In this document: positions 1-14,114 of the stretch, in pieces | How positions within the stretch are numbered: position 1 is the stretch's first letter | How the letters are laid out: each line of letters opens with the position of its first letter | From: Cyclobacteriaceae bacterium | Lineage (GTDB): Bacteria > Bacteroidota > Bacteroidia > Cytophagales > Cyclobacteriaceae | Direction of reading: 5' to 3' | Assembly (NCBI GenBank): GCA_019751475.1 | Contig: JAIENH010000344.1 | Location: 1 to 14,294 of the forward strand | DNA: 14,294 bases | Position numbers and translations under genes: made by a program | Notes under the pieces: model-generated | Databases searched by the model: none | The model's input: the letters and a program-made list of their open reading frames with translations, nothing else | Told to the model about the DNA's origin: nothing

Positions 1-391
1 CCACCACGAGGTCAACACCAGCCTGCAGTTTTTCAATCTGGGTCTTAGGGCCTACGCCCCCGTATAACGCCAGTGTGCGAATGTCAGTAAACTGAGCCAG
101 CACCTGCGCATGCTCTGCAATTTGCACCACCAGCTCTTTGGTAGGTGCTACAATCAATCCGCGAGGTCCTCCCGGCTGTGCAAACTTTACTTTCCATAGT
201 AAAGGCAACAGGTAAGCGGCCGTCTTGCCGGTACCAGTCTGCGCTATGCCGATCACGGCTTGTCCACCCAACGCGAGGGGAATCACCTTTTCCTGGATCT
301 CGGTAGGAGGCCCAAAACCAGCCGCTTGCACCCCTTTGAGCAATTGTGGGTTGAGTTTTAGATGATCCCAGGAAGAATTTGAAGCTTGCAC
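1..391 (-). CDS. DEAD-box RNA helicase, N-terminal part (runs off window start)
   Basis: ATP-dependent RNA helicase of the DEAD-box family, acting in the cytoplasm on RNA structure in ribosome assembly or mRNA turnover. The 130 visible codons hold the Q motif (GFGPPTEIQ), motif I/Walker A (AQTGTGKT) and motif Ia (PTKELVVQI), followed by the GG region (YGGVGP). Motif II (DEAD) and the second RecA domain lie outside the window. No ATG is available. An in-frame TAA at 404-406 caps the frame, so GTG at 389-391 is the most likely start, giving MQASNSSWDHLKLN, which aligns with the usual 'F..L.L...LL' opening. It diverges from pyrC across only 27 bp. The subfamily (RhlE-like or other) cannot be told from this fragment. 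Confidence 0.9.
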   Translation of the reverse strand, partial: MQASNSSWDHLKLNPQLLKGVQAAGFGPPTEIQEKVIPLALGGQAVIGIAQTGTGKTAAYLLPLLWKVKFAQPGGPRGLIVAPTKELVVQIAEHAQVLAQFTDIRTLALYGGVGPKTQIEKLQAGVDLVV

Positions 392-412
392 CGTGAATGG
401 TTGTTACCTTTG
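386..412 (+). promoter_or_regulatory. Bacteroidota-type promoter of pyrC
   Basis: TACCTTTG at 405-412 matches the Bacteroidota -7 consensus TAnnTTTG exactly. A TTG at 386-388 is a possible -33 element, although the 16-nt spacer is a little short. The -7 element ends only 6 nt before the pyrC ATG at 419, so transcription should begin at or within a base or two of the start codon, giving a leaderless or nearly leaderless mRNA. The element also overlaps the first bases upstream of the divergent helicase gene. Confidence 0.6.
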
Positions 413-418
413 TTGCGA

Positions 419-1753
419 ATGAAAACACTGATTGTCAACGCGAAGATAGTAAACGAAGGCAAGGTCATAGAAGGCGATGTCTTGATCCGTGATGAACGAA
501 TCGAGCGAATCGGTTCTCACCTTTCGGATCAGACAGCCTCCGTGGTGGATGCCAATGGAAAACTGCTCATACCAGGAGCCATTGATGACCAGGTACACTT
601 TCGTGAACCCGGACTAACGCACAAGGCTACGGTTTACACCGAGTCGCGGGCAGCCGTGGCCGGTGGTGTCACCTCGTTTATGGAGATGCCCAATACGGTG
701 CCGCCTGTTTTCACACAAGAATTGCTGGAACAAAAATACTCCATCGCTTCGCGCGATTCGCTTGCCAACTATTCATTCTTCATGGGCACTTCCAATGACA
801 ACACCGAAGAGGTGATGAAGACGGATTTGCGAAAGGTATGCGGACTAAAAATATTCATGGGCTCCTCCACAGGCAACTTGCTGGTGGACGATCCGGCTGT
901 GTTGGAAAATATTTTCTCCCGTTTTCCGGGATTGATCGCTACACACTGCGAGCACGAACCCACCATCCGAAAAAACCTGGAGGACGCCAAGAAGAAGTAT
1001 GGTGAGGAAGTGCCTATGGCATTTCATCCGGTGATCCGCAGTGAAGAAGCCTGCTTTTTATCGTCCTCATTTGCCAGAGGATTGGCTCAGAAACACGGCA
1101 CACGCCTGCACATTCTCCACATCTCAACTGCCAAGGAGACACACTTGTTTGATAATACGCTGCCACTGGAGCAAAAGAAAATAACGTCTGAGGCGTGCAT
1201 TCATCACTTGTGGTTCAACGATCAGGCTTACCAAATGCTTGGAGCCAAAATAAAATGGAACCCGGCCATTAAAACTGCACACGATCAAGCAGAAATATTC
1301 AAGGCCCTGTTGGACGATCGCATTGATGTAATCGCAACAGACCATGCTCCTCATACCTTGGAAGAAAAGCAGAACACTTACTTCCAGGCTCCTTCAGGCG
1401 GGCCGTTGGTGCAACACAGCGTGGTGGCCATGCTGGAGTTTTTTCATCAGGGTAAAATCACGCTGGAGAAAATCGTACAAAAGATGGCACATCATCCGGC
1501 TATTCTCTTTCGCATACAGGATCGCGGCTTTATTCGTGAAGGGTGCTTTGCAGATTTGGTGCTGGTGGATTTAAACAATCCCTGGAAAGTGGAGAAGAAA
1601 AACATACTGGCCAAGTGTGGATGGTCGCCTTTCGAGGGACAAACATTTCAGTCAAGCATCACACATACATTTATCTCGGGTCACCTGGCGTATGAAAATG
1701 GCACGTTGCACGACCAGAAAGTCGGGCACAGGTTAGCGTTCAGGCACGCATAG
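419..1753 (+). CDS. pyrC: dihydroorotase
   Basis: Zinc amidohydrolase that interconverts carbamoyl-aspartate and dihydroorotate, the third step of de novo pyrimidine synthesis, in the cytoplasm. The product is 444 aa, normal for the class I (long) type. Visible motifs are DDQVHFREPG at 56-65, the PNT loop at 91-93, KIFMGSSTG around K144, H177 in ATHCEHE, HILHIS at 231-236, TDHAPH at 307-312 with the catalytic Asp308, and the C-terminal GCFADLVLVD that rebuilds the small beta domain. The usual HxH metal pair reads Q58-V-H60. I recall this Gln as common in Bacteroidota PyrC proteins, so it need not mean loss of activity. ATG 419 is chosen over an in-frame TTG at 386 because it fits the conserved N-terminus and follows the promoter. 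It stands alone and ends at a strong terminator. Confidence 0.93.
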   Translation: MKTLIVNAKIVNEGKVIEGDVLIRDERIERIGSHLSDQTASVVDANGKLLIPGAIDDQVHFREPGLTHKATVYTESRAAVAGGVTSFMEMPNTVPPVFTQELLEQKYSIASRDSLANYSFFMGTSNDNTEEVMKTDLRKVCGLKIFMGSSTGNLLVDDPAVLENIFSRFPGLIATHCEHEPTIRKNLEDAKKKYGEEVPMAFHPVIRSEEACFLSSSFARGLAQKHGTRLHILHISTAKETHLFDNTLPLEQKKITSEACIHHLWFNDQAYQMLGAKIKWNPAIKTAHDQAEIFKALLDDRIDVIATDHAPHTLEEKQNTYFQAPSGGPLVQHSVVAMLEFFHQGKITLEKIVQKMAHHPAILFRIQDRGFIREGCFADLVLVDLNNPWKVEKKNILAKCGWSPFEGQTFQSSITHTFISGHLAYENGTLHDQKVGHRLAFRHA

Positions 1754-1761
1754 GCATTAAC

Positions 1762-1789
1762 AAAAAAACCTCTTTCAAGAGGTTTTTTT
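1762..1789. terminator. rho-independent terminator after pyrC
   Basis: CCTCTT (1769-1774) pairs with AAGAGG (1777-1782), flanked by seven A on the left and seven T on the right, so it can work in both directions. It lies 8 bp beyond the pyrC stop. It directly abuts the outermost tRNA-His 3'-end copy (from 1790), so on the - strand it may once have been the native terminator of tRNA-His, before the GIY-YIG cassettes separated the two. That last point is inference. Confidence 0.88.
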
Positions 1790-1803
1790 GGGTGAAAGAC
1801 GGG

Positions 1804-1853
1804 ATGCCGTGCCTGTGGCACGTGCATGCTCGTACCGACTCTGTCGGTACGGC
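1804..1853. repeat. palindromic segment of cassette 1
   Basis: A 50-bp segment with two stem-loops: CGTGCC-TGT-GGCACG, and GTACCGAC-TCT-GTCGGTAC. Outer TGCCGT and ACGGCA can pair across the whole segment. It sits exactly where tRNA-His reads straight from GACGGG into ACTCGAA, so it behaves like an insertion in a tRNA T-arm copy. The central CGAGCATGCTCG palindrome of the other copies is degraded here to CGTGCATGCTCG. Confidence 0.75.
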
Positions 1854-1860
1854 ACTCGAA

Positions 1861-2118
1861 TTACCGCGATGTAGCTTTTAACACAAATTCAATAATGCGT
1901 TTGCGCGATTTGAAATTCTTAAGCTTACGTTCAAGTTTCATAGCCTCCGCTCTGGATTCTACTTGACTACTCCAAAAAATTTTCCAGGGTCTTTTAGTAC
2001 GACTGTATCTTTCCAACCCCGCATTATGCCTTTTCAGCCTATCGTCAAGATTGTTGGTTTGACCGATGTAAAACGAACCGTCAATCTCAGATTGAAGAAT
2101 GTAAATAAAGAATGACAT
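1861..2118 (-). CDS. GIY-YIG endonuclease domain protein, copy 1
   Basis: Small single-domain GIY-YIG nuclease of 85 aa, of the stand-alone type often labelled 'excinuclease ABC subunit C-like'. Family features visible: Y-I-L at the first strand (FIYILQS), FYIGQT for the YIG half, the catalytic Arg in DDRLKRHN with following His and Asn, and Glu63 in KLERKLK as the metal-binding Glu. The domain is complete, so the copy may be active. ATG at 2116-2118 is chosen rather than an upstream in-frame start at 2217, because the upstream part is the hairpin, tRNA-end copy and palindrome of the next unit, and all three copies align from this ATG. Copy-specific residues include Ile5, Ile12, Ala33, Arg37 and Ser51. 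Its cellular role is unknown. Confidence 0.85.
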   Translation of the reverse strand: MSFFIYILQSEIDGSFYIGQTNNLDDRLKRHNAGLERYSRTKRPWKIFWSSQVESRAEAMKLERKLKNFKSRKRIIEFVLKATSR

Positions 2119-2121
2119 CCT

Positions 2122-2149
2122 AAAAAAAGCCCCCAATACCGGGGCTTTT
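2122..2149. terminator. hairpin with A/T flanks upstream of GIY-YIG copy 1
   Basis: AAAAGCCCC (2125-2133) pairs with GGGGCTTTT (2141-2149) around a 7-nt loop. Read on the - strand it ends in a T-run 3 nt before the GIY-YIG ATG. It resembles a bidirectional intrinsic terminator. The loop differs from copies 2 and 3 while the stem is preserved. Confidence 0.75.
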
Positions 2150-2164
2150 AGGGTGAAAGACGGG

Positions 2165-2215
2165 ATGCCGTGCCTACGGCGCGAGCATGCTCGTACCGAC
2201 CTTTGTCGGTACGGC
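2165..2215. repeat. palindromic segment of cassette 2
   Basis: A 51-bp segment with CGTGCC-TAC-GGCGCG (one position becomes a G-U pair at RNA level), the perfect palindrome CGAGCATGCTCG, and GTACCGAC-CTTT-GTCGGTAC. Compared with cassette 3, the changes fall in a loop or keep pairing. Confidence 0.75.
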
Positions 2216-2222
2216 ACTCGAT

Positions 2223-2480
2223 TTACCGCGATGTAGTTTTTGCTACAAACTCACTAATACGTTTTCGAGATTTGAAATTCTTGATCTTACGCTCAAGTTT
2301 CATGGCCTCCGCTCTGGATTCCACCTGAAAGCTCCAAAAAATTTTCCAGGGTCTTTTAGTACGACTGTATTTTTCCAATCCCGTGTTGTGTCTTTTCAGT
2401 CGATCATCAAGATTGTTGGTCTGACCAATGTAAAACGAACCGTCAACCTCGGATTGAAGAATGTAAACGAAGAATGGCAT
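2223..2480 (-). CDS. GIY-YIG endonuclease domain protein, copy 2
   Basis: 85-aa GIY-YIG nuclease, one residue different from copy 3 (Ile65 instead of Leu65 in ERKIKNF). It has VYILQS at 5-10, FYIGQT at 16-21, catalytic Arg27, His31-Asn32 and Glu63. The open frame is intact and all expected catalytic residues are present. The start ATG (2478-2480) is 3 nt after the T-run of the hairpin at 2484-2511, with no visible promoter or Shine-Dalgarno sequence between. The stop codon falls in the T-arm-like sequence TCGCGG-TAA-TTCGAGT (- strand). Its role is unknown. A nicking or homing activity that promotes spread of the cassette is a reasonable guess. Confidence 0.87.
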   Translation of the reverse strand: MPFFVYILQSEVDGSFYIGQTNNLDDRLKRHNTGLEKYSRTKRPWKIFWSFQVESRAEAMKLERKIKNFKSRKRISEFVAKTTSR

Positions 2481-2483
2481 GCT

Positions 2484-2511
2484 AAAAAAAGCCCCAAATA
2501 TTGGGGCTTTT
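2484..2511. terminator. hairpin with A/T flanks upstream of GIY-YIG copy 2
   Basis: GCCCCAA and TTGGGGC form a stem around a 3-nt loop, extended by an A-run on the left and T-run on the right. It is identical to the hairpin following tRNA-His. In either direction it should act as an intrinsic terminator. Confidence 0.8.
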
Positions 2512-2526
2512 AGGGTGAAAGACGGG

Positions 2527-2576
2527 ATGCCGTGCCTACGGCACGAGCATGCTCGTACCGACTCTGTCGGTACGGC
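2527..2576. repeat. palindromic segment of cassette 3
   Basis: CGTGCC (2531-2536) pairs with GGCACG (2540-2545), CGAGCATGCTCG (2544-2555) is a perfect palindrome, and GTACCGAC (2555-2562) pairs with GTCGGTAC (2566-2573). TGCCGT (2528-2533) can also pair with ACGGCA (2572-2577), closing the whole segment. It resembles a REP-type or recombination-type palindrome. Confidence 0.78.
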
Positions 2577-2583
2577 ACTCGAA

Positions 2584-2841
2584 TTACCGCGATGTAGTTT
2601 TTGCTACAAACTCACTAATACGTTTTCGAGATTTGAAATTCTTAAGCTTACGTTCAAGTTTCATGGCCTCCGCTCTGGATTCCACCTGAAAGCTCCAAAA
2701 AATTTTCCAGGGTCTTTTAGTACGACTGTATTTTTCCAATCCCGTGTTGTGTCTTTTCAGTCGATCATCAAGATTGTTGGTCTGACCAATGTAAAACGAA
2801 CCGTCAACCTCGGATTGAAGAATGTAAACGAAGAATGGCAT
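2584..2841 (-). CDS. GIY-YIG endonuclease domain protein, copy 3
   Basis: 85-aa GIY-YIG nuclease nearest to tRNA-His. Same motifs as copy 2: VYILQS, FYIGQT, DDRLKRHN and Glu63 in KLERKLK, then the basic tail KSRKR and C-terminus KTTSR. The product has only the catalytic domain, with no added DNA-binding region, so target choice must lie in the domain or in a partner. It starts 33 nt downstream of the tRNA-His 3' end, with a terminator-like hairpin between, and would have to be transcribed by read-through from the tRNA promoter unless a promoter hides in the hairpin. Nearly identical copies suggest recent duplication or gene conversion. Confidence 0.88.
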   Translation of the reverse strand: MPFFVYILQSEVDGSFYIGQTNNLDDRLKRHNTGLEKYSRTKRPWKIFWSFQVESRAEAMKLERKLKNFKSRKRISEFVAKTTSR

Positions 2842-2844
2842 GCT

Positions 2845-2872
2845 AAAAAAAGCCCCAAATATTGGGGCTTTT
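2845..2872 (-). terminator. terminator of tRNA-His / leader hairpin of GIY-YIG copy 3
   Basis: AGCCCCAA (2851-2858) pairs with TTGGGGCT (2862-2869) around loop ATA, extended by flanking A and T runs. On the - strand it follows the tRNA 3' end by 2 nt and its T-run ends 3 nt before the GIY-YIG ATG. It should terminate the tRNA transcript and thereby limit nuclease expression. Confidence 0.82.
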
Positions 2873-2874
2873 AG

Positions 2875-2949
2875 GGTGAAAGACGGGACTCGAACCCGCG
2901 ACCTCCAGAATCACAATCTGGCGTTCTAACCAACTGAACTACATTCACC
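2875..2949 (-). tRNA. tRNA-His (anticodon GTG)
   Basis: Cloverleaf read on the - strand. The acceptor stem opens GGTGAATG and closes with CTTTCACC, including the extra G-1 pairing C73 that marks tRNA-His, with one T-T mismatch. The D arm has AGTTCAGTTGGTTAGAAC, the anticodon stem is CCAGA/TCTGG around TTGTGAT with anticodon GTG (2912-2914 on +), and the T arm holds GGTTCGAGTCC. CCA is not encoded. The sequence is intact, so any insertion at its 3' end restored it. Confidence 0.96.
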
Positions 2950-2961
2950 GTTTTGGGACAG

Positions 2962-2991
2962 CAAAGGTAGAGAGCCCGTCTTAATTTACAA
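2962..2991 (-). promoter_or_regulatory. promoter of tRNA-His
   Basis: On the - strand, TTG (2991-2989, part of TTTTTG), then 19 nt, then TACCTTTG (2969-2962). This is a near-perfect Bacteroidota vegetative promoter (-33 TTG, -7 TAnnTTTG). The expected start is about 6-7 nt before the mature tRNA. It may also drive the GIY-YIG genes by read-through. Confidence 0.85.
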
Positions 2992-3068
2992 AAAGTCAAT
3001 TTTCCTTTCCCCTGGTGTAAAACCTCTTTCTGTTGCCGGGGTTTCTGACTAATCTCGAAATAAAAAAT

Positions 3069-3920
3069 ATGGATCAGCAAATCATCAACCTCTTTGACGA
3101 ATACACGCACAAGCCATTGAGCCGTGAAGTGTTTATGAAAAGACTTACCCGACTCACCGGGAGTACAGCCGCTGCGATTGCGGCTCTGTCTTTGCTGGAA
3201 GTAAACTATGCCTCCGCTGCCACCATACAAGATGACAAGGTGCTGACGGAACGAATAACGTATGCTGGTGATGGCGCTGAGATGAAAGGCTACCTCGCCC
3301 GCCCGAAAGGTGATGGCAAATATGCTGCGGTGATGGTGATTCACGAAAACCGGGGACTCAACCCGCACATTGAAGATGTGACCCGCAGGGTAGCACTGGC
3401 AGGATACTTGGCCCTTGCTCCTGATGCGCTTTCGCCACAAGGTGGCACACCAGCCGATGCTGATCAGGCACGAGCCCTATTTCAGCAACTGGATGCAGCA
3501 AAGAATCTCAACAACTTCATAAAAGGATTTGACTATTTGAAAACAAGAAAGGACTGCAACGGAAAATTCGGGGCAGTCGGGTTTTGCTGGGGTGGCGGAT
3601 TGGTCAATCAGTTAGCCGTGAACGTGACTGATTTGCGCGCAGCCGTTTCATTCTACGGTCGTCAGCCAGAGCCTGCCGATGTACCCAAAATAAAAAGTGC
3701 TGTGCAACTTCACTATGCCGGCATGGACGAACGAATCAATGCCGGTATCGGTGCCTACGAAGAAGCATTGAAGAAAGCCGGCACGCGCTACGAGCTTTAT
3801 CAGTATGAAGGCGCACAGCATGCCTTTCACAATGACACCGCCCCCACTCGCTACAACGAGGCTGCTGCCAAGTTGGCGTGGGAGCGAACTCTCTCTTTCT
3901 TTCAAAAGAATTTATCGTAA
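3069..3920 (+). CDS. exported dienelactone hydrolase family protein (carboxymethylenebutenolidase-like)
   Basis: Alpha/beta hydrolase of the dienelactone hydrolase family, 283 aa, predicted to hydrolyse a lactone or ester. The physiological substrate is unknown. The catalytic Cys173 lies in GFCWGGG, Asp220 in YAGMDERIN and His251 in GAQHAFHND. HENRG at 92-96 carries the Glu that holds the Cys in this family. Residues 1-50 form a long N-terminal extension ending in a hydrophobic stretch (GSTAAAIAALSLL) and Ala-Ser-Ala, a likely export signal. Basic KRLTRL precedes it, but it lacks a clear twin-arginine motif. ATG 3069 is chosen over an in-frame TTG at 3033, because the family's N-terminus (MDQQIINLFDEYTH) starts there. 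It stands alone, divergent from tRNA-His. Confidence 0.88.
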   Translation: MDQQIINLFDEYTHKPLSREVFMKRLTRLTGSTAAAIAALSLLEVNYASAATIQDDKVLTERITYAGDGAEMKGYLARPKGDGKYAAVMVIHENRGLNPHIEDVTRRVALAGYLALAPDALSPQGGTPADADQARALFQQLDAAKNLNNFIKGFDYLKTRKDCNGKFGAVGFCWGGGLVNQLAVNVTDLRAAVSFYGRQPEPADVPKIKSAVQLHYAGMDERINAGIGAYEEALKKAGTRYELYQYEGAQHAFHNDTAPTRYNEAAAKLAWERTLSFFQKNLS

Positions 3921-4020
3921 GTATCAACGCTCAAGAACGGGCAGCACCCGACTTGCGTGATGATTTTATTAAGAATGTGATTTCATTGGCGCATGAAATA
4001 CTTTGTAGTAAATTTATTTC

Positions 4021-4272
4021 ATGATATCGTGGAAAGACTTCCGGGGCCAATCACTTGACCGGCAGATCGTGCTGCTCTATGAACACGGCTCATGCGTGAT
4101 GAGCATCCGCTACTACGGATATAAAGTAAACTTATACCTGCTCGGAAATTTCTACTTAGAGGTTTTTTACAATCACAAAAAAGATCTGATCGAAAAAATC
4201 ATCCCGCTGGATGTGCGTCATTCGCGGATGAATTTCTACGTTGACCAGATAAAACTACCCGATACACTTTAA
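4021..4272 (+). CDS. small conserved-looking hypothetical protein, 83 aa
   Basis: I do not recognise a named family. The 83-aa product is soluble, with no signal peptide or membrane helix, and is rich in aromatic residues and alternating hydrophobics (YYGYKVNLYLLGNFYLEVFY), suggesting a small beta-sheet fold. The ATG at 4021 follows AT-rich sequence with no Shine-Dalgarno. It ends at a good bidirectional terminator, and composition resembles its neighbours, so I take it as a real gene. It lies 100 bp after the hydrolase and may be co-transcribed or have its own promoter. Confidence 0.72.
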   Translation: MISWKDFRGQSLDRQIVLLYEHGSCVMSIRYYGYKVNLYLLGNFYLEVFYNHKKDLIEKIIPLDVRHSRMNFYVDQIKLPDTL

Positions 4273-4275
4273 AAT

Positions 4276-4300
4276 AAAAAACCCCGACTCGCGGGGTTTC
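4276..4300. terminator. bidirectional terminator between convergent genes
   Basis: AACCCCG (4280-4286) pairs with CGGGGTT (4292-4298) around loop ACTCG, with an A-run on the left and a short T-run on the right. It separates the + strand 83-aa gene from the - strand membrane protein gene and can serve both. Confidence 0.85.
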
Positions 4301-4322
4301 TATTCAATATTGTAAAACAATT

Positions 4323-5057
4323 TTAAGCAGTAGCAGCTGTAGGTATTTTTGTTTGCACTTTCAGGGCTACGGTCTTGCGTGCCTTGTAGCCGCAGTAGCT
4401 GCACTGGTAGTGCTTCAACAACTCGCCTTCTTCCGTCTCCGTTGGCTGGCGGATAATCTCCTCACGCAGTACTTTAAAAGTTTGGTAGTTGCACTCAGGG
4501 CACTGGATAGCGTGCAGGTGACCCGCGTATTTTTCAATTTTAATGAAGCCAGTCTCCTCGTCTTTCCATACATCGTAGTCAACGGAGTAAACATTTTCTT
4601 CAGCTTGCATACCCTCATCTAAGTGAGCATCTTCTTCCTCTTCGCTTAGCAACTTCATCGGCTTGCCAGTTTTAGGAGAAATCCGTGGCTTGTAGCGCAA
4701 TACTTTCAGGCGCTTTTCAATGAAGAAAGGATAGTAAAACTTCAGCAGGTTTTGGATGATAAGTGCCGCAATCATGCCCAAGGAAACAGTAACAAACACT
4801 CTTACAAAAATCCACAGGGTATTGAGCTCGTAGATATTACCATTAAAGTAGAAACAAGTGCCCGTGATAAGAATAAGGCTGGCGTACCACAAGAAATTCA
4901 CTTCATGACGATTGATGAAGTCGTACTTGTCCTTGTTGTCAGGAATGGTCGCAAGTTTCACAATATAGCCCAGTACAACTAAAATAGCTGCCGCCCAGCA
5001 GGCGTAAGCGATGTTGTGGGCCATGTCATTCCAAGATGCGTAAGGGCTTTCAACCAT
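4323..5057 (-). CDS. three-helix membrane protein with C-terminal zinc ribbon
   Basis: The 244-aa product has three predicted membrane helices at about 17-36, 54-72 and 81-102, followed by a soluble, presumably cytoplasmic, domain. The linker at 118-160 is charged and contains the acidic run SEEEEDAHLDE. CPEC (186-189) and CSYC (219-222) make a zinc ribbon with a 29-residue gap. I do not recognise the function. Zinc ribbons of this kind are often structural or bind nucleic acid or protein. No neighbouring gene explains it, as it is monocistronic between its own promoter and the terminator at 4276-4300. The start at 5057 is the first ATG and lies about 28 nt after the predicted transcription start. 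Confidence 0.82.
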   Translation of the reverse strand: MVESPYASWNDMAHNIAYACWAAAILVVLGYIVKLATIPDNKDKYDFINRHEVNFLWYASLILITGTCFYFNGNIYELNTLWIFVRVFVTVSLGMIAALIIQNLLKFYYPFFIEKRLKVLRYKPRISPKTGKPMKLLSEEEEDAHLDEGMQAEENVYSVDYDVWKDEETGFIKIEKYAGHLHAIQCPECNYQTFKVLREEIIRQPTETEEGELLKHYQCSYCGYKARKTVALKVQTKIPTAATA

Positions 5058-5090
5058 GGTGTTTATCAGTTTTCAGTTTAGTAATCAAAG

Positions 5091-5121
5091 CAAATATAAA
5101 AAGTAAGTGAATTACTCCCAA
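5091..5121 (-). promoter_or_regulatory. promoter of the membrane/zinc-ribbon gene
   Basis: On the - strand, TTG (5121-5119), 20 nt, then TATATTTG (5098-5091), an exact TAnnTTTG. It lies 33 bp upstream of the ATG in AT-rich sequence, so the gene is separate from the upstream dxs-hydrolase unit. Confidence 0.8.
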
Positions 5122-5185
5122 TTTCAATTGAATCACCAATTTAGCGTGATTCGCTCAAAAATTCCAATACCCGCGAAAATTAAAT

Positions 5186-5956
5186 CTATTTATCGAAAAA
5201 TACTCGCTTACTGAATTGCAAAACGATCTGCCGGGTAACCTCTTTGGCCTCAAAAAAGCCCATATGCCCTGTATTTTCTAGACTATGAAATTCCGCTTTT
5301 TGCCCCATTTTGTCCATTTTTCCGTTGGCTTCGGCTGGTATTAATGTGTCCTCCGCCCCGGCTATTACTAATGCCGGGTACACACTTTTTTCCAACACGT
5401 CTGATCGGTCGGGGCGATCGCGCATGGCAGCCAGGTAGGCGGTGATAGTCTCCTTTTTAGTTTGGATAGCAATGCTATAAACTGTTGAAATCGCTGAATG
5501 TTCTTTATCAAAAAAGAGCCCTGGAACGAAGGTGTCAACAAAGGGGGCCACGCCATTCTTGGTTACAAACTCAATGACCTTATTCCGGTTTTGCTTTTTT
5601 TCTTCCGTGTCCGGGAAGGTGGTGGAATGAAACAACACTAAGCCCTCTATTAAATTTTCGTAACGAGCCGCTAACGATAAGGTAACATAACCTCCCAGCG
5701 AATGACCGATCACGATAGGCCGTTCGATTTTATTCTCTTGCAGCCACTTGTAAACCTGATCGGCTACCTGATCAATTGAAAAAGGCGCGGGTATCAACGG
5801 AGAATTTCCGAATCCTGGCAAGTCAATAGCAATGACACGAAACTCTTTTGATAGCGGGGGCACAAATTCTTGCCACACTTCGCTTGTCTCACAAAATCCG
5901 TGGATAAATACGAGGGGTCTTCCACTGCCCCACTCTCGAAAATACAAGGATGTCAT
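5186..5956 (-). CDS. alpha/beta hydrolase, co-transcribed with dxs
   Basis: 256-aa alpha/beta-fold hydrolase of the small soluble esterase/lipase type. Oxyanion-side HG is at 19-20 (FIHGFCE), the nucleophile is Ser86 in GHSLGG, the acid Asp203 in AGAEDTLIP, and His231 in NTGHMGFFE. No signal peptide, so cytoplasmic. The ATG directly follows the dxs stop codon (TAAATG), implying translational coupling in one operon. The substrate cannot be read from sequence. The link with dxs suggests co-expression, not necessarily a shared pathway. I see no clear intrinsic terminator downstream. Confidence 0.88.
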   Translation of the reverse strand: MTSLYFREWGSGRPLVFIHGFCETSEVWQEFVPPLSKEFRVIAIDLPGFGNSPLIPAPFSIDQVADQVYKWLQENKIERPIVIGHSLGGYVTLSLAARYENLIEGLVLFHSTTFPDTEEKKQNRNKVIEFVTKNGVAPFVDTFVPGLFFDKEHSAISTVYSIAIQTKKETITAYLAAMRDRPDRSDVLEKSVYPALVIAGAEDTLIPAEANGKMDKMGQKAEFHSLENTGHMGFFEAKEVTRQIVLQFSKRVFFDK

Positions 5957-7882
5957 TTAAGCCATGCGCGTGGCAGGTTCCAGCATCAGCAAAATAGCTT
6001 TCTCAATACCGGCCGGTCCGAATCCACAGTCGTTATGAAGCTCCAGTTGTTCGCCATGTTCAATCACGCTATCAGGAATACCGAGACGCTTTACTTCTGC
6101 AGCGTAGCGATGGTCTGCCATGAATTCAAGTACGGCACTTCCTAACCCGCCCTGCACGCAGCCGTCTTCTACTGTGATGATCTTTTTGTAATTGGAAAAT
6201 ACTTCATGCAGCAGGCGCTCATCCAGCGGCTTCACAAATCGCATATCAAAATGTGCTACGCGAATGCCTTGCTGTTCTAAGGCATCACAAACCTCCACAG
6301 CATAATTACCAATGTGGCCGATGGTAAGCAACGCCAGTTCTTCACCATCGCGAAGTTTTCGGCCCGTGCCAATTTCAATTTTTTCAAACGGTGTTCTCCA
6401 TTGCGGCATCACACCCTGACCGCGTGGATAGCGGATCGAAAATGCTCCGCCCTTTCGCGGCAGTTGGGCTGTGAACATCAGGTTGCGCAGTTCAGACTCA
6501 TTCATCGGTGCCGACACAATCATGTTGGGAAGACAACGGAAGTAAGCGATATCATACGCTCCGTGGTGCGTAGGTCCATCCGCCCCGGCAAAGCCGGCCC
6601 GATCAAGACAGAAGTTAACAGGCAAATCTTGTATACATACATCGTGCACCACCTGATCGTAGGCACGCTGCATGAATGAGCTATAAATATTGCAAAAAGG
6701 TACCAAGCCCTGCGTGGCAAGTCCGGCTGAAAATGTCACGGCATGCTGCTCTGCAATGCCCACATCAAAAGCGCGGTCGGGCATTTCTCGCATCATGATA
6801 TTCATAGAAGAGCCCGAAGGCATGGCAGGTGTGATGCCTACAATCTTATCGTTGGCTTTGGCAAGCTCTACCAATGTATGCCCAAACACATCCTGATACT
6901 TTGGGGCCTGAGGTTTGTCATGCACTTTCTTATGTATCTCACCCGTGATTTTATCAAAGGTGCCAGGCGCATGCCAGGTGGTTTTGTTACCCGTCTCTGC
7001 TGGAGCATACCCCTTTCCTTTTACCGTTATGCAATGAAGAATTTTAGGTCCCTTGATACTCTTCAGGTCATTGAGCACAGCTACAAGATGATCCACATCA
7101 TGGCCATCCACAGGGCCAAAGTAGCGGAGGTTAAGTGACTCGAATAAATTACTTTGACTCAACAATGCCGACTTGAGGGCCGTGTCAACTTTGGAAACAA
7201 TCTCCTGGGCATTCTTGCCAAAATGAGAAAGCTTGCCCAGTAAATTCCATACATCGTCCTTGAGGCGATTGTATGTCTTGGAAGTAGTGATGTCTGTAAG
7301 ATAATCTTTCAAAGCCCCCACATTGGGGTCGATAGACATGCAGTTATCATTAAGAATGATAATCAGATTAGTGTCTGACACGCCCGCATGATTTAACCCT
7401 TCAAAGGCAATGCCGCCTGTGAGGGCCCCGTCACCAATAATGGCTACATGCTGTTTGTCTTCAATCTTCAGGTACTTAGAAGCAACCGCCATTCCCAAAG
7501 CAGCCGATACAGATGTAGAGGAGTGGCCTACGCCAAAGGTGTCATACTCGCTTTCTTTCCTTTTCGGGAAACCGGAAATGCCACCGTACAGCCGGTTGGT
7601 GTGAAAAATATCTCTGCGACCTGTCAGGATCTTGTGTCCGTACGCCTGGTGGCCTACATCCCACACAATCTGATCATACGGTGCATTAAATACATAATGC
7701 AGCGCCACGGTTAGTTCGGCTACACCCAGGCTGGCCCCAAAATGCCCCCCATAAATGGATACATTATCAATGATAAACTGGCGTAGCTCCTGGCATAGCT
7801 GTACCAACTGCGCCTGATCTAATTTTTTTAGGTCAGCCGGGCCATTGATCTGTGAAAGCAGTTTACCGGGTGTGATGAGCAT
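5957..7882 (-). CDS. dxs: 1-deoxy-D-xylulose-5-phosphate synthase
   Basis: Thiamine-diphosphate enzyme that condenses pyruvate and glyceraldehyde 3-phosphate to DXP, the entry step of the MEP isoprenoid pathway, in the cytoplasm. Its 641 aa is normal length. Seen: GGHFGASLG with His47, the ThDP-binding motif GDGALTGG (150-157) through NDN (178-180), GPVDGHD (257-262), GIAEQHAV with catalytic Glu378, and the DRAGFAGADGPTHHG segment (427-441) of the transketolase-like pyrimidine-binding domain. The transketolase C-terminal domain follows. It is the first gene of a two-gene unit with the alpha/beta hydrolase. The start ATG at 7880-7882 fits the family N-terminus (LLSQINGPADLKKL). It diverges from scpA over 138 bp. 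Confidence 0.97.
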   Translation of the reverse strand: MLITPGKLLSQINGPADLKKLDQAQLVQLCQELRQFIIDNVSIYGGHFGASLGVAELTVALHYVFNAPYDQIVWDVGHQAYGHKILTGRRDIFHTNRLYGGISGFPKRKESEYDTFGVGHSSTSVSAALGMAVASKYLKIEDKQHVAIIGDGALTGGIAFEGLNHAGVSDTNLIIILNDNCMSIDPNVGALKDYLTDITTSKTYNRLKDDVWNLLGKLSHFGKNAQEIVSKVDTALKSALLSQSNLFESLNLRYFGPVDGHDVDHLVAVLNDLKSIKGPKILHCITVKGKGYAPAETGNKTTWHAPGTFDKITGEIHKKVHDKPQAPKYQDVFGHTLVELAKANDKIVGITPAMPSGSSMNIMMREMPDRAFDVGIAEQHAVTFSAGLATQGLVPFCNIYSSFMQRAYDQVVHDVCIQDLPVNFCLDRAGFAGADGPTHHGAYDIAYFRCLPNMIVSAPMNESELRNLMFTAQLPRKGGAFSIRYPRGQGVMPQWRTPFEKIEIGTGRKLRDGEELALLTIGHIGNYAVEVCDALEQQGIRVAHFDMRFVKPLDERLLHEVFSNYKKIITVEDGCVQGGLGSAVLEFMADHRYAAEVKRLGIPDSVIEHGEQLELHNDCGFGPAGIEKAILLMLEPATRMA

Positions 7883-8005
7883 GGCTTTTGAAGACGCAGT
7901 GTAGAAAACGCGGATTTAAGGTAAGTGTTTAGGGTCGAATTAAAAGGTTTTGGGCAGCAAATTTACGCAATTGCTTCCGATCCCGGTTTTGTCCATCTAT
8001 TTGAA

Positions 8006-8013
8006 TATTTTTG
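8006..8013 (+). promoter_or_regulatory. -7 promoter element of scpA
   Basis: TATTTTTG matches TAnnTTTG and ends 7 nt before the scpA ATG at 8021, predicting a leaderless or nearly leaderless mRNA. No -33 TTG is found at the usual spacing. The nearest, in TTTTG at 7987-7991, leaves only 14 nt. Confidence 0.5.
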
Positions 8014-8020
8014 CGCCCTT

Positions 8021-8788
8021 ATGACCCAGGAAAATTTTGAAGTAAAGCTGCCGCTCTTTAAAGGGCCATTCGATTTATTGCTGTTCTTTATTGAGCGCGA
8101 TGAGTTGGACATCTATGACATTCCTATCTCTAAAATCACCCACGATTTCCTGGACTACCTCCACCACTTGGAGAACATGAACGTAGAGTTGGCCAGCGAG
8201 TTTATATTGGTAGCTGCCACGCTCATGCGGATCAAATCAAAAATGCTGCTGCCGCGCCCGCAACTGGATGAGGCCGGCAATGAGATTGACCCGCGCGAGG
8301 AATTGGTGAAGCACTTGCTGGAGTATAAAAAGTACAAGTCGGTGATTGAGTCCTTCCAGAAAATGGAAGAAGAAGAACTTCAAAAAGAGAAGCGAGGCAA
8401 TATTTTAAAAGAACTGAAATCACTGGCGGCCAGTGTAAACGTGGAGGCAGAGTTGCAAGACGTAGACCTGTATAAGCTCATGCAGGTATTTGAAAAGGTG
8501 ATGAAGCGCTACGATGAGGAAAAAAATCGCCCGGTACATCAAGTGGTGCAATATCCTTATACCGTAGAGGGGCAAAAAGAGTTTATCATGAACGAGCTTA
8601 CACGAAAGTCGCAATTGTCATTTACAGAAATGCTGGAGATCAACCCTACCCGGGTAGCACTGATTTTTAATTTCTTGGCCATCCTGGAAATGCTCGCGAT
8701 CGGAAACCTGCAAATACGAGTGGGCGAAGGATATAACAACTTTTGGATCAGCTTGCGCGAGTCGGTAGAATCAGCAGCCGGGCACTAA
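8021..8788 (+). CDS. scpA: segregation and condensation protein A (kleisin)
   Basis: Kleisin subunit of the SMC-ScpA-ScpB condensin, which compacts and segregates the chromosome. 255 aa. The N-terminal domain opens with the hallmark FKGPFDLLLFFIERDELDIYDIPISKIT, followed by the helical region ELASEFILVAATLMRIKSKMLLPR. A charged, coiled middle (about 110-165) leads to the C-terminal winged helix, which ends VGEGYNNFWI. The frame is open upstream to a GTG at 7925, but ATG 8021 matches the family start and follows the -7 element. scpB and smc are not in the window. Confidence 0.94.
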   Translation: MTQENFEVKLPLFKGPFDLLLFFIERDELDIYDIPISKITHDFLDYLHHLENMNVELASEFILVAATLMRIKSKMLLPRPQLDEAGNEIDPREELVKHLLEYKKYKSVIESFQKMEEEELQKEKRGNILKELKSLAASVNVEAELQDVDLYKLMQVFEKVMKRYDEEKNRPVHQVVQYPYTVEGQKEFIMNELTRKSQLSFTEMLEINPTRVALIFNFLAILEMLAIGNLQIRVGEGYNNFWISLRESVESAAGH

Positions 8789-8841
8789 CATCAAATATTT
8801 ACCTCTCGCACAACTTCTTAGCGGCAAGCCGATAAGCACGC

Positions 8842-8849
8842 TAATTTTG
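8842..8849 (+). promoter_or_regulatory. -7 promoter element of the TolC-family gene
   Basis: TAATTTTG matches TAnnTTTG, 21 nt upstream of the ATG at 8871. A proper -33 TTG is not evident, so confidence is limited. It implies that the gene is transcribed separately from scpA. Confidence 0.5.
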
Positions 8850-8870
8850 TATTTCTTTTCCTTACCATTT

Positions 8871-10283
8871 ATGAGACTAGTGAAGTGGATTGTCTTTCTG
8901 ATGCCGTTGGCCTTGTTTGCGCAAGAGCCGCTCACGCTTCAGCAGGCTATTGAGCAGGGGCTAAAAAACAATTTTGACATTCAAATACAGAACTCCCTCG
9001 TTGAAATTGCCAAAAACAATAACACCGCGGGCCAGGCTGGTCGATTTCCTACCATTAACTTATTACTCAACAGCACCAACAGTATTGTTGAGCGGTTGCC
9101 GGCCAACCCTTTCGCTGTCGCGGGAAGAAACCGTGCCCACAGTGCCCCGGGTCAGTTGGATATTGGCTGGGTACTGTTTGATGGATTTAGCGTCAGCATC
9201 ACCAAAACGCAGCTCGACAGACTCGAAAAACAATCCGAAGGCAATGCTGCTATTGTAGTGCAGAACACACTTCAAAGTATCATCTTAGGATACAGCTTAG
9301 TACTGCTGGAGAAAGAACGCCTTGAAGTGCGAAAAAAATTACTTGACCTCTCCAAGACGCGCTATGAACAGGTGAAACTCAAAAAGAGCGTTGGCAGCGC
9401 CATCACGTTTGATGTACTCCAGGAAGAAAGTAATTTTCTTACCGACTCTGGCAACTACGTTTTGCAGCAATTGAATTTGAGAAATTCTGTGCGCAATCTC
9501 AACGTGTTGATCAACGAACGTATCGACAAGACATACGCATTTCCTGACCCACTCAAATTCAATGCTCCCAATTTTGTGTTTGAAGATCTGGAACAGAAAA
9601 TGACCAGCAGCAACTTCACGCTGAAGAATCAGTACATCACGCAGTCCATCCTCCACACCAATACGCAGTTGGCCCAAACCAATCTCTACCCATCGCTCAA
9701 CCTCAATGTCGGTGGTCAGGGTAGTCTCGATTGGCTTAACGCCCGATTCCGGCCCACCGAAAACGGCACACCGGTGAAAAACACCGTAGGTTATCTGAAC
9801 GATGACCTTACCCAGCCGGTGATCAACACTACGTTTGCGCCTGAATACCGCACTGTGGCCGGTAATTCGTACGGAGGCTACGCCAATCTTTCCCTTCGAT
9901 GGACATTATTCAATGGTGGACAGATCAAACGCAGCATTGAGAACGCCCGCAAAAATGAGATCATTGGCCAACTCAACACCGACAGACTAAAGCTGTTGCT
10001 GCAGCGCGACTTGCAGTCTTCCTTCGACTTGTATGAGCAACGTAAGCAGATCGTAAACATCGCCAAGACAAATCAACGAGCAGCAGAGCTTAATCTTACC
10101 CTGGCGGAAGAGCGCTATCGAGTAGGTTATATCAATGCGATTGAGTTACGCCTTATTCAACTTAACTATCTGAATGCGTCACTTGCTAACCTGGAGGCTG
10201 TATTCAGCCTCATTGATGTCTACACCGATTTGATGAGCCTCACCGGCAGCATCCTTGAGCAGGCGGAGAATTTTAAGGATTAG
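8871..10283 (+). CDS. TolC-family outer membrane efflux channel protein
   Basis: 470-aa outer-membrane factor forming the exit duct for tripartite efflux pumps or type I secretion. A signal peptide covers about residues 1-17 (hydrophobic WIVFLMPLALFA, cleavage before Gln18). LTLQQAIEQGLKNNFDIQIQ is the typical start of an OEP repeat. The second repeat has NLSLRWTLFNGGQIKRSIENAR, equivalent to the first repeat's LDIGWVLFDGFSVSITKTQ, then long helices with QRAAELNLTLAEERYRVG. ATG 8871 is chosen over TTG 8847 because it gives a clean signal peptide. No membrane-fusion or RND/ABC partner lies in the window, so it is an orphan here and must pair with pump parts encoded elsewhere. Confidence 0.9.
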   Translation: MRLVKWIVFLMPLALFAQEPLTLQQAIEQGLKNNFDIQIQNSLVEIAKNNNTAGQAGRFPTINLLLNSTNSIVERLPANPFAVAGRNRAHSAPGQLDIGWVLFDGFSVSITKTQLDRLEKQSEGNAAIVVQNTLQSIILGYSLVLLEKERLEVRKKLLDLSKTRYEQVKLKKSVGSAITFDVLQEESNFLTDSGNYVLQQLNLRNSVRNLNVLINERIDKTYAFPDPLKFNAPNFVFEDLEQKMTSSNFTLKNQYITQSILHTNTQLAQTNLYPSLNLNVGGQGSLDWLNARFRPTENGTPVKNTVGYLNDDLTQPVINTTFAPEYRTVAGNSYGGYANLSLRWTLFNGGQIKRSIENARKNEIIGQLNTDRLKLLLQRDLQSSFDLYEQRKQIVNIAKTNQRAAELNLTLAEERYRVGYINAIELRLIQLNYLNASLANLEAVFSLIDVYTDLMSLTGSILEQAENFKD

Positions 10284-10428
10284 TTACATACTGAAAGTCG
10301 GCCAGATTTGTGGCCTCTGAGGCATTCAGCTTCAAACAGCTTTTGTATTAACCAGACGATATGGGCATGTCTTGCCATGTCGAAAAAATTCTTTTACCTT
10401 CCAATCTCTATCTACTAACCTCCTATCC

Positions 10429-11694
10429 ATGAAACGTATCCTGTTTCTCCTTTGTATTTCGATTGGTGCTTGGGCACAAAAGTCCGGTACGTATTTATTG
10501 CAACCCGATCGCGTCTTTGATGGAAAAGAAATGCACGATGGATGGGTAGTGCTGGTAGAAAATGATAAGATCGCAGCGGCAGGTCCGGCTTCATCCGTCA
10601 AAGCAGGTAAGGACACGCAGACCATTGCCATGCCGGGTGCCACATTACTACCCGGCCTCATTGAAGGCCACTCACATTTGCTTTTGTATCCATACAACAT
10701 CACCGACTGGGATACACAGGTATTGAAAGAATCAGACTCCTATCGCACGGCACGCGCCACCGTGCATGCCAAGAATACACTGATGGCCGGCTTCACCACC
10801 GTGCGCGATCTTGGCACCGAAGGGGCCGGCTATTCAGATGTAGCATTGAAGCGAGCTATCAATGAAGGAATTATTCCGGGGCCACGGATGATTGTTGCTG
10901 GTCGCGCCATCGTATCTACTGGGTCGTACGGGCCGAAAGGATATGACACCGACATGGAGATAATGCTCGGTGCCGAGCCTGCCGATGGCAATGATTTGAT
11001 TCGGGTAGTGCGTGATCAGATTGGTAAAGGCGCAGACTTTATAAAAGTGTATGCTGATTATCGCTGGGGAATAAAGGGAGAAGATCAACCATCCTTTACA
11101 TTGGAAGAATTAAAGCTGGTGAACGAAGTAGCGCGAAGCAGTGGTCGCTACTTAGTGTGCCATGCCAAGAGCAAAGAGGCGATGAGACGCGCCATCCTGG
11201 CCGGGGCGGAGACCATCGAGCACGGAGATTTTCTGGATGAAGAAATCGCCCAGTTGATGAAAGAACACAACATCACATTCTTTCCTACACTGGCGGCCAT
11301 TGATGCCATACAGCAGTATCGCAATGGGTGGAAGAAAGGAAAAGAAGAAGAACCACTTGCTGTGAAAAACAAAAAGAAAAGTTTCCGCATTGCGGTGGAG
11401 GCAGGCGTGACCATAGGCGAAGGCGCTGATGTGGGTGTATTTCCTCATGGTGAAAATGTGTATGAAATGGAGTTGATGGCTGAATATGGAGGCATGAAAC
11501 CGCTGGATATTATGAAAGCCGCCACAACCGTCAATGCAAAAGCGCTGCACATGGAAAATGAAATCGGGGCCATACGCCCAGGGCTGAAGGCCGACCTGAT
11601 GGCCGTGCGAGGCGATCCCTCAAAAAATATTTCTGAATTGAGAAAAGTACAGTTCGTGATGAAAGATGGTGTGGTGTATCGAAATGAAAAATAA
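10429..11694 (+). CDS. exported metal-dependent amidohydrolase (prolidase/imidazolonepropionase-like)
   Basis: 421-aa amidohydrolase-superfamily enzyme with a signal peptide (MKRILFLLCISIGAWA, cleavage before Gln17), so periplasmic or secreted. Binuclear-metal ligands visible: His81-x-His83 (LIEGHSHLL), Lys206 in DFIKVYADY, His245 in VCHAKSKEA, His265 in ETIEHGDFLD and Asp334 in GADVGVFPHGENV. The C-terminal GLKADLMAVRGDP rebuilds the beta domain. The closest subgroup by pattern is the Xaa-Pro dipeptidase/imidazolonepropionase-related set, but the substrate is open. Start ATG 10429 gives the signal peptide. An in-frame upstream start at 10372 does not. It is followed after 14 bp by the TIM-barrel gene in the same operon. 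Confidence 0.88.
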   Translation: MKRILFLLCISIGAWAQKSGTYLLQPDRVFDGKEMHDGWVVLVENDKIAAAGPASSVKAGKDTQTIAMPGATLLPGLIEGHSHLLLYPYNITDWDTQVLKESDSYRTARATVHAKNTLMAGFTTVRDLGTEGAGYSDVALKRAINEGIIPGPRMIVAGRAIVSTGSYGPKGYDTDMEIMLGAEPADGNDLIRVVRDQIGKGADFIKVYADYRWGIKGEDQPSFTLEELKLVNEVARSSGRYLVCHAKSKEAMRRAILAGAETIEHGDFLDEEIAQLMKEHNITFFPTLAAIDAIQQYRNGWKKGKEEEPLAVKNKKKSFRIAVEAGVTIGEGADVGVFPHGENVYEMELMAEYGGMKPLDIMKAATTVNAKALHMENEIGAIRPGLKADLMAVRGDPSKNISELRKVQFVMKDGVVYRNEK

Positions 11695-11708
11695 TTCCAC
11701 TAAAAAAT

Positions 11709-12563: not shown

Positions 12564-12566
12564 GTA

Positions 12567-13433: not shown

Positions 13434-13436
13434 GAT

Positions 13437-13454
13437 TAATGGGTTTGCCCATTA
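13437..13454. promoter_or_regulatory. perfect inverted repeat before the beta-solenoid gene
   Basis: TAATGGG (13437-13443), loop TTTG, CCCATTA (13448-13454). It lies 3 bp upstream of the - strand ATG. It could be an operator or, in the mRNA, a hairpin that hides the start codon. A near -7 element on the - strand (TCTTTTTG, 13467-13460, one mismatch to TAnnTTTG) would start transcription right at the hairpin. No regulator is visible. Confidence 0.5.
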
Positions 13455-13564
13455 GACGTCAAAAAGATTGAATGGGTTGCAGTCAAATATCGCTGAGAGT
13501 TGTTGCCAAAAGGCAAACTCATGCGGGTATGTGAAAAACAAAGGGCTTTTCGTAGATTTACTAT

Positions 13565-14098: not shown

Positions 14099-14114
14099 GT
14101 CTTTGATAGAGGTT

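Follow-up and report, generated by a model that had tools for sequence, protein, structure and literature searches.

The DNA analysed here is a stretch of 14,294 nucleotides (nt) from a Cyclobacteriaceae bacterium (assembly GCA_019751475.1, contig JAIENH010000344.1, positions 1 to 14,294; hereafter the window), in which a tRNA-His gene is followed by three tandem units, each holding one gene for an 85-amino-acid (aa) GIY-YIG nuclease and a broken copy of the same tRNA. Together with its relatives in other genomes, this cassette appears to represent a minimal selfish element of a type not yet described. The explanation considered probable is that of a homing-like element specialised on tRNA genes, in which the intact and the broken tRNA copies would serve as recombination arms. 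A farther-reaching proposal is advanced only tentatively, as one somewhat more likely to fail than to hold: that the cassettes are mobile elements of a new class, parasites of tRNA genes with a single gene and ~350 bp, which would cut in an isotype-specific manner, be copied in via an intact and a disarmed arm, and build CRISPR-like polar arrays growing at the tRNA.

At the window locus, GGGTGAAAGACGGGA, the 3' end of tRNA-His, occurs exactly at 1790, 2151, 2513 and 2874 (plus strand) with a spacing of 361, 362 and 361 bp, as an earlier note made from the letters alone had claimed. There is no further match in the window at up to two mismatches, the shuffled expectation is 0.01 and none of 200 shuffles reached four. 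The note had also placed one complete nuclease gene in each interval, and the three open reading frames (ORFs) listed in Table 1 agree with this, all of them matching PF01541; the frame of unit 3 spans 1861-2217 in the ORF list (118 aa from an upstream GTG) and encodes 85 aa when read from the ATG at 2118. On the minus strand, the order is tRNA-His, terminator, nuclease gene, TTCGAG (in copy 2 an A precedes TCGAG), a two-hairpin insert and TCCCGTCTTTCACCC, and the unit from terminator to TCCCGTCTTTCACCC is present three times. The tRNA-His terminator recurs in this way ahead of each unit, and the outermost tRNA copy has a different terminator behind it. Since TTCGAG and the two-hairpin insert of ~50 bp precede TCCCGTCTTTCACCC, the 15-nt repeats constitute the second half of a T-arm interrupted within its loop. 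Entry at a tRNA 3' end with restoration of the tRNA, as the earlier note proposed, is in keeping with an intact tRNA whose own 3' end has been copied, but the repeat is not a simple att-like one, being a piece of an arm-damaged tRNA copy. Identity over the matched coding part is 98.7% between units 1 and 2 and 86.1% between units 2 and 3. The ratio of non-synonymous to synonymous rates (dN/dS) among units is 0.10 to 0.13, with 20 synonymous and 11 non-synonymous differences between units 1 and 3, which argues that the window nuclease has been kept functional. The absence of an integrase from the cassette, another claim of the note, is borne out: no integrase or recombinase is present in the 361-bp units, each with the nuclease gene only, and Pfam detected no integrase, transposase or relaxase in ten other, neighbouring ORFs of the window, one of which has no Pfam match. 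In an Rfam scan of positions 1700-3050 the tRNA alone reached the gathering score. A group I or II intron carrying a homing endonuclease was rejected, given the lack of an intron RNA in that scan and the uninterrupted tRNA, and no known RNA family was assigned to the hairpin region.

Genomes with a relative of the window protein number 265 of the 392 sampled from the phylum, a count that includes the window's genome; for the family the figure is 75 of 98 and for the genus 55 of 58. The loci examined were the best matches per genome or the best loci, together with 80 stretches taken roughly down the E-value lists (mostly one per array, some rows skipped, picked blind to tRNA context), two of which are wider views of arrays already in the set. 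L020, L022, L148 and L157 (the same places as L100, L119, L026 and L024) were removed before the counts, as were L002, L003, L008-L010 and L140, which are the window again; from the 198-array count 8 duplicates were removed. Among the resulting 198 distinct arrays, 148 have a tRNA on the same strand within 150 bp and 15 have one at 151-400 bp or inside the array, so that a same-strand tRNA accompanies 163 of them; a tRNA on the opposite strand only was seen in none. Arrays hold 1 to 14 units with a median period of 351 bp (63 neighbouring pairs), and sixteen isotypes plus one undetermined tRNA are represented in the set used for the trees. The longest array, in a single-contig genome (L119, G096:C1:3224000-3235000), has 14 intact units and a fragment behind tRNA-Asp. 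In the window's own genome, the window protein as query retrieved four further relatives outside the window, three of them beside tRNA-Pro(tgg), tRNA-Val and tRNA-Pro(agg) and the last one without a tRNA, 249 bp away from a contig end; a profile search gave 9 matches, two more than the window protein, and contexts were read for the other seven. Contigs end close to many arrays (e.g. L105, L112, L116, L117, L126, L127, L133, L175, L181 and L192), for which reason draft assemblies probably undercount them.

The association reaches the sequence of the adjacent tRNA itself. In class A the tRNA lies upstream of the nuclease gene and in class B, its mirror image, downstream; a far-side copy was called when at least 13 of 15 nt of the adjacent tRNA's own end were matched. 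In the class-A arrays of the family, genus and own-genome sample, the 3' 15 nt of the tRNA recur beyond the nuclease gene in 46 of 73 arrays and 55 of 115 cassettes, against 4 of 2300 for a control with the ends of other isotypes. The corresponding figures for the phylum sample are 36 of 44 arrays and 44 of 65 cassettes (control 0/1300). Class B shows the reverse arrangement, with the tRNA's 5' 15 nt repeated ahead of the nuclease gene in 22 of 27 arrays (control 2/585; a 28th array was too short). The earlier note's expectation of relatives beside tRNA ends with matching repeats is supported, while its view of the tRNA 3' end as the site holds for class A but not for the mirror class, which uses the 5' end. 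The terminator has been copied too in 35 of 65 cases, against 14 of 975 in the control. By eye, the copied part in class B ends in the anticodon loop just ahead of the anticodon (Ser, Arg, Ala) or in the T-loop (Pro). Far-side ends track local variants: the tRNA-His genes of L041 and the window differ in their last 15 nt and each cassette matches its own at 15/15, the other cassettes of the tRNA-His lineage match their own tRNA end at 13 to 15 positions, and the decayed L011 does so at 8. In the near pair G017 and G140, a far-side copy is present in G140 and was not found in G017.

The copied tRNAs are damaged in a characteristic manner. Over 81 class-A copies, with tRNAs longer than 80 nt left out, coverage is 94-99% in the last 13 nt, ~60% in the T-loop region, 10-21% in the anticodon arm (34-48 nt from the end) and 30-36% on the 3' side of the D-arm; because it drops at the anticodon arm and rises again at the D-arm, the former is selectively missing. 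A palindrome such as TCCCGATAGCTATCGGGA often stands in its place; perfect palindromes (stem of at least 6, absent from the intact tRNA) occur in 48 of the 81 copies in class A and in 18 of 22 in class B. Copies that retain the anticodon arm, with the palindrome in the T- or D-loop, are seen in L060, L126 and L131. Two hairpins, TGC-CG..CG-A-GCA and TGC-T-CG..CG-GCA, make up the insert of the tRNA-His lineage; there is a variant that starts with GTCCCG, and the stems vary between species yet still pair. Palindromes of the form TCCCGA-N2-8-TCGGGA occupy 23 sites in the own genome, against none for a control pattern. The window's two-hairpin core, CGAGSATGCTCG, is confined to the window and one other place in the genome, inside a broken tRNA-Gly copy, and an origin of the window hairpins from dispersed repetitive extragenic palindromic (REP) sequences of this genome was discarded on that ground. 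Several structures of this kind stand apart from nuclease genes. In L005 (G000:C781, ~1861-2068), the stretch upstream of tRNA-Val contains copies of the tRNA's 5' part at intervals of ~59 bp; each copy has a TCCCGA..TCGGGA palindrome but lacks a nuclease gene, and the whole may be a non-autonomous derivative. By eye, palindrome-bearing tRNA copies also lie beside intact tRNAs at L221 (tRNA-Thr), L223 (tRNA-Asn) and L219 (tRNA-Gly) of the own genome, where no GIY-YIG gene was detected. Palindromes of the TCCCGA..TCGGGA type are found twice inside a stretch at L212 (G000:C501:1750-2091) that resembles RNase P RNA, a putative gene for it.

In the protein trees, nuclease lineages are tied more closely to tRNA isotype than to host family. 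In a tree of 151 proteins, isotype changes 44 times against a shuffled mean of 110 (minimum 101 of 500). After thinning to one protein per genus and isotype (128 rows), isotype still requires 44 changes (mean 92, minimum 84) and host family 54 (mean 66, minimum 62), and in the phylum sample alone (50 proteins) the values are 18 against 33 (minimum 29) for isotype and 31 against 36 (minimum 31) for host family. L133, with its undetermined tRNA, was left out of the trees. Membership of class A or B is more labile, with 19 changes against a shuffled 25 (minimum 22). Of ten congener relatives of at least 60% identity that were examined, eight are at tRNA-His and two start at a contig edge. Nuclease and host-gene identity within the tRNA-His lineage give a rho of 0.14 (p 0.48; 28 pairs, one host gene, mostly one conserved locus), and the two disagree in G126-G136 (host gene 0.86, nuclease 0.66) and G121-G136 (0.79 and 0.83).

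Copy number and location are not fixed across congeners. Between the amidohydrolase and DLH genes, tRNA-His is without a cassette in six congeners (L068, L069, L071, L074, L075, L090), the same neighbourhood contains a decayed cassette in L073 and three units in the window, and arrays elsewhere vary in length as described above. Amidohydrolase neighbours the occupied tRNA-His in L011, L041, L042, L043, L046 and L047 and was not found beside it in L044/L089 (DLH side only) or L045; the idea that congener cassettes lie in different neighbourhoods was dropped, since most share this neighbour. The comparison of strains with and without the cassette, which the earlier note had called for, therefore shows polymorphism, but mostly at one chromosomal tRNA-His, and for that reason the pattern within the genus is by itself no proof of movement. 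Occupied, empty and decayed sites suit gain or loss alike.

Arrays are also polar. Where the tRNA lies within 700 bp of a multi-unit array, the far unit is decayed in 21 arrays, the near unit in none and neither in 25, a count in which three single units with the tRNA 250-700 bp off could conceal a decayed near unit. A stricter count with the tRNA within 200 bp gives 17 to 0 and could likewise conceal decayed near units. There are twelve three-unit arrays, most of which include a fragment unit; in eleven the two units nearer the tRNA resemble each other more closely, and one is a tie. The informative ones are L001, L033, L037 and L184, with the tRNA-side pair closer, and L201, the tie. Growth at the tRNA would be expected to produce such polarity.

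At the protein level, all three window nucleases match PF01541 (E 3.5e-17, 2.9e-17 and 1.6e-16; 60.8-63.2 bits, cut-off 22.6), and PF01541 and PF10544 are the sole Pfam matches to the 85-aa protein, with no further domain. Across 152 proteins, Y6 is conserved at 0.98, Y17 at 0.99 and R27 at 0.99, and G19, H31, E63 and K67 at 100%; Y6, Y17, G19, R27 and E63 presumably correspond to the catalytic Tyr, Gly, Arg and Glu of GIY-YIG enzymes. A profile of 27 relatives found the UPF0213 structures 1zg2 (E 1.7e-18) and 1ywl as the best solved structures, followed by Slx1. A Foldseek search with the AlphaFold model (predicted local distance difference test, pLDDT, 92) ranked 1zg2 and Slx1 first, with UvrC and I-TevI (catalytic domains) further down. 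The protein is accordingly modelled as a single-domain nuclease of UPF0213/Slx1-like fold. Homing endonucleases typically, if not universally, owe their site specificity to a separate DNA-binding module; here, isotype specificity may reside within the catalytic domain itself. The unit-1 protein had no match in PHROGs. The only PADLOC hits were weak and partial, to two PDC-S14 models (E 2.1e-4 to 3.5e-4), and a defence system was rejected accordingly.

The anatomy of the units, their tRNA association, the copies, the polarity, the isotype-bound lineages, the purifying selection in the window and the empty sites are the observations from which the preferred explanation starts. In it, the nuclease would cut the gene of one tRNA isotype and the break would be repaired from a cassette-bearing locus, with homology arms provided by the intact tRNA on one side and by the tRNA copy on the other; the copy-side arm would include the terminator in class A and ~10 bp of upstream DNA in class B. 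Because repair would run over two tRNA-derived arms, the nuclease gene would be copied in and the tRNA left whole. Loss or replacement of an arm, seen in most tRNA copies, would protect them both from cutting and from acting as tRNAs. Out-of-register repair of cuts at an occupied site would add units adjoining the tRNA, so that the youngest units of an array would lie at the tRNA and decayed ones at its far end. The nuclease is probably expressed from the tRNA promoter, since both lie on the same strand in all arrays with a nearby tRNA. Such a cut-and-repair cycle would account for the isotype-bound lineages, the local tRNA ends, the duplicated terminator or upstream bases, the direction of the genes, the arrays, their polarity and the disarmed copies. 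The earlier note's suggestion of a minimal homing or self-accumulating element on tRNA genes is supported in this respect by the association, the copies and the arrays, although homing itself is inferred.

It is important to consider what weighs against this proposal. Cutting, the repair route and transfer are inferred, neither cleavage, excision nor transfer having been observed, and the intact tRNA adjoining the cassette is the presumed target, whose escape from cutting is unexplained. From its sequence the protein is a single GIY-YIG catalytic domain, with no DNA-binding module that would explain isotype specificity. No far-side copy was found in 27 of 73 and 8 of 44 class-A arrays and no 5' copy in 5 of 27 class-B arrays; among 81 class-A copies, 33 gave no perfect palindrome with a stem of at least 6, partly because bulged hairpins such as those of the window escape that test. 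Relatives away from tRNAs, which the earlier note had named beforehand as contrary evidence, do exist: 13 of the 198 arrays have no nearby tRNA (four in records not titled Bacteroidota), and 22 have a contig end within 400 bp and no tRNA. With 44 isotype changes, either switching is no rare event or the tree, with its ~80 columns, is noisy, and polarity could also be expected if the near unit alone were expressed and selected. With amidohydrolase as neighbour in 6 of 8 occupied congener loci tested, vertical descent with loss fits too, and in the near pair G017/G140 host gene and nuclease agree (DLH 0.96, nuclease 0.98). These last points favour a reading that we regard as unlikely on the whole, in which a resident housekeeping or repair nuclease of the host sits beside tRNAs, is inherited vertically and often lost, and its units and tRNA copies arise by passive unequal crossing-over at short repeats. 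The purifying selection on the window units, the fold closest to UPF0213 and Slx1 and the mostly single conserved neighbourhood of the genus's tRNA-His cassettes agree with it as well. It has difficulties with the patchy occurrence at phylum level, the sixteen isotypes and the empty congener sites, with lineages that track isotype above host family and with the mismatches of G126-G136 and G121-G136, and passive crossing-over leaves both the palindrome-replaced arms and the mirror class unexplained. Strictly vertical descent is nonetheless only weakened by these data.

The palindromes themselves could be the mobile part, REP-like or small-dispersed-repeat elements that enter the stem-loops of RNA genes, with the nuclease acting as a structure-specific enzyme on hairpins or cruciforms and tRNAs favoured as stem-loop-rich. 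The 23 TCCCGA-N2-8-TCGGGA sites, the nuclease-free broken tRNA copies recognised by eye, the two palindromes in the RNase P RNA-like stretch and the presence among the nearest structures of Slx1, which processes branched DNA according to the structure titles, all point that way. The CGAGSATGCTCG core, found only in the window and one broken tRNA-Gly copy, is therefore no dispersed repeat, and isotype-bound lineages require recognition of tRNA sequence beyond hairpins, which leaves this reading quite unlikely. It is very unlikely that the nuclease targets the tRNA itself as an anticodon-nuclease-like toxin, with the arm-replaced copies as decoys or immunity RNAs: isotype-bound lineages and the frequent loss of the anticodon arm would suit it, but characterised GIY-YIG enzymes are, to our knowledge, DNases, a toxin needs neither a location at its target gene nor arrays, and the PADLOC matches are limited to those mentioned above. 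Finally, an assembly artefact or misbinning might be suspected from a window genome drafted in 813 contigs and from arrays that coincide with contig ends. For the phenomenon this is refuted, its probability being negligible, by arrays within single-contig genomes (14 units in G096, 5 units in G442), by the many independent genomes and by units that differ in sequence; the window's exact count of three units is a draft-assembly figure.

Among known systems, phage SegB, for which Brok-Volchanskaya 2008 is reportedly the listed reference, appears by analogy to be the nearest in logic. According to PMC13096335, SegB is a GIY-YIG homing endonuclease of phages T4 and T6 that drives tandem amplification of a tRNA-segB unit, and it shares with the cassette nuclease a free-standing gene, without an intron, tied to tRNAs of many isotypes. 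In the same source, SegB belongs to phage genomes, no favoured isotype is reported, and the survey covers bacteriophage and archaeal-virus proteins rather than bacterial chromosomes (PMC13096335). The window-type cassettes are chromosomal, form isotype-bound lineages, encode a single domain of ~80-90 aa and carry a damaged tRNA copy in many units. Since the two were compared by description and not by sequence, the cassette is likened to a homing endonuclease gene and not filed as SegB. Two traits of homing genes are found in it: presence/absence polymorphism at the cognate site, here tRNA-His between amidohydrolase and DLH, and lineages tied to the target over host phylogeny (isotype 44 against 92, host family 54 against 66). 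UPF0213 proteins and Slx1 have the fold and catalytic residues in common with the cassette nuclease, by profile and Foldseek, and we know of no tRNA-linked mobile behaviour for either. Islands, prophages and satellites that integrate at tRNAs use tyrosine recombinases; like them, the cassette has tRNA genes as sites and leaves an intact tRNA plus a copy of a tRNA end, but its units have no integrase, copy either tRNA end, damage the copy and stack. Small dispersed repeats are short dispersed palindromes, a description that also applies to REP palindromes (PMC3733652). Unlike REP sequences, the cassette palindromes replace arms of tRNA copies adjoining a nuclease gene. Among the literature matches listed, in which subscription journals and bioRxiv are thinly covered, none was seen to describe GIY-YIG cassettes tied to tRNA genes on bacterial chromosomes.

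Introns and inteins persist in essential genes by splicing, and islands by an integrase that restores the gene. The present element appears to inhabit an essential gene by means of one 85-aa nuclease and tRNA-derived homology arms, in two thirds of the phylum genomes examined (265/392). If the preferred explanation is true, it would be among the smallest autonomous selfish elements of bacterial chromosomes and a chromosomal counterpart to SegB amplification, and it would explain many of the phylum's small GIY-YIG genes. It would also provide isotype-bound nucleases with natural disarmed-target controls for studying the onset of homing and tRNA gene number, and it may drive the tandem multiplication of tRNA genes. 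Beside this possibility stands a separate observation at L026 (G078:C12), where a cassette adjoins nine tRNAs in a row, six predicted as Asp(gtc) and three as Gly(gcc), several at a 101-bp spacing; tRNA amplification with anticodon change is possible there.

Table 1. Features of the tRNA-His locus in the window.
Feature	Position	Strand	Basis
Complete tRNA-His gene (gtg), presumably the target and the array's promoter side	2874..2948	-	ARAGORN; Rfam tRNA 68.8 bits
Intrinsic-terminator-like stem-loop directly 3' of the tRNA	2842..2873	-	sequence, alignment, inverted repeats
GIY-YIG nuclease unit 1, 85 aa, closest to the tRNA	2584..2841	-	ORF, Pfam, model pLDDT 92
Broken tRNA-His copy 1	2513..2583	-	TTCGAG 2578-2583, two-hairpin insert 2528-2577, tRNA 3' end 2513-2527
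Terminator copy 2	2481..2512	-	sequence, alignment
GIY-YIG nuclease unit 2, 85 aa	2223..2480	-	ORF, Pfam
Broken tRNA-His copy 2	2151..2222	-	T-loop remnant 2217-2222, two-hairpin insert 2166-2216, tRNA 3' end 2151-2165
Terminator copy 3	2119..2150	-	sequence, alignment
GIY-YIG nuclease unit 3, 85 aa, the most divergent of the three (dN/dS vs unit 1: 0.11)	1861..2118	-	ORF, Pfam
Broken tRNA-His copy 3	1790..1860	-	T-loop remnant 1855-1860, two-hairpin insert 1805-1854, tRNA 3' end 1790-1804
Different terminator at the outer end of the array, before the convergent amidohydrolase gene	1761..1790	.	inverted repeat I15

Beyond these loci, a weaker set of 42 arrays (40 from titled genome records and 2 from viral contigs) has the tRNA upstream in 17, downstream in 8 and at 171 bp in 1, with contig ends in 5 and no tRNA in 11 (six viral or not Bacteroidota by title, five Bacteroidota); L262 and L265 gave no array in the titled-record set. 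No nearby tRNA was found at Thalassotalea L259, Clostridia L260, WOR-3 L261, Falkowbacteria L263 and the viral L267 and L268. The last two, IMG/VR viral contigs, carry relatives at 46% identity; a phage origin was rejected, since 20 phage records, judged by identity, all fall below 40% and these two loci have no tRNA. Class B also occurs in metagenome bins recorded as Candidatus Microgenomates (tRNA-Ala, L252, 312-kb contig), Nitrospirae RBG_16_64_22 (tRNA-Ala, L241) and Candidatus Falkowbacteria (tRNA-Thr, L275). At L275, the intact tRNA-Thr is immediately followed by another tRNA-Thr copy, which bears two CCCCGCATTTGCGGGG palindromes and has no nuclease gene. Elsewhere in the window, at 13565-14098, Pfam identifies a gene of the Uma2 family (putative restriction endonuclease), apparently unrelated to the cassettes.

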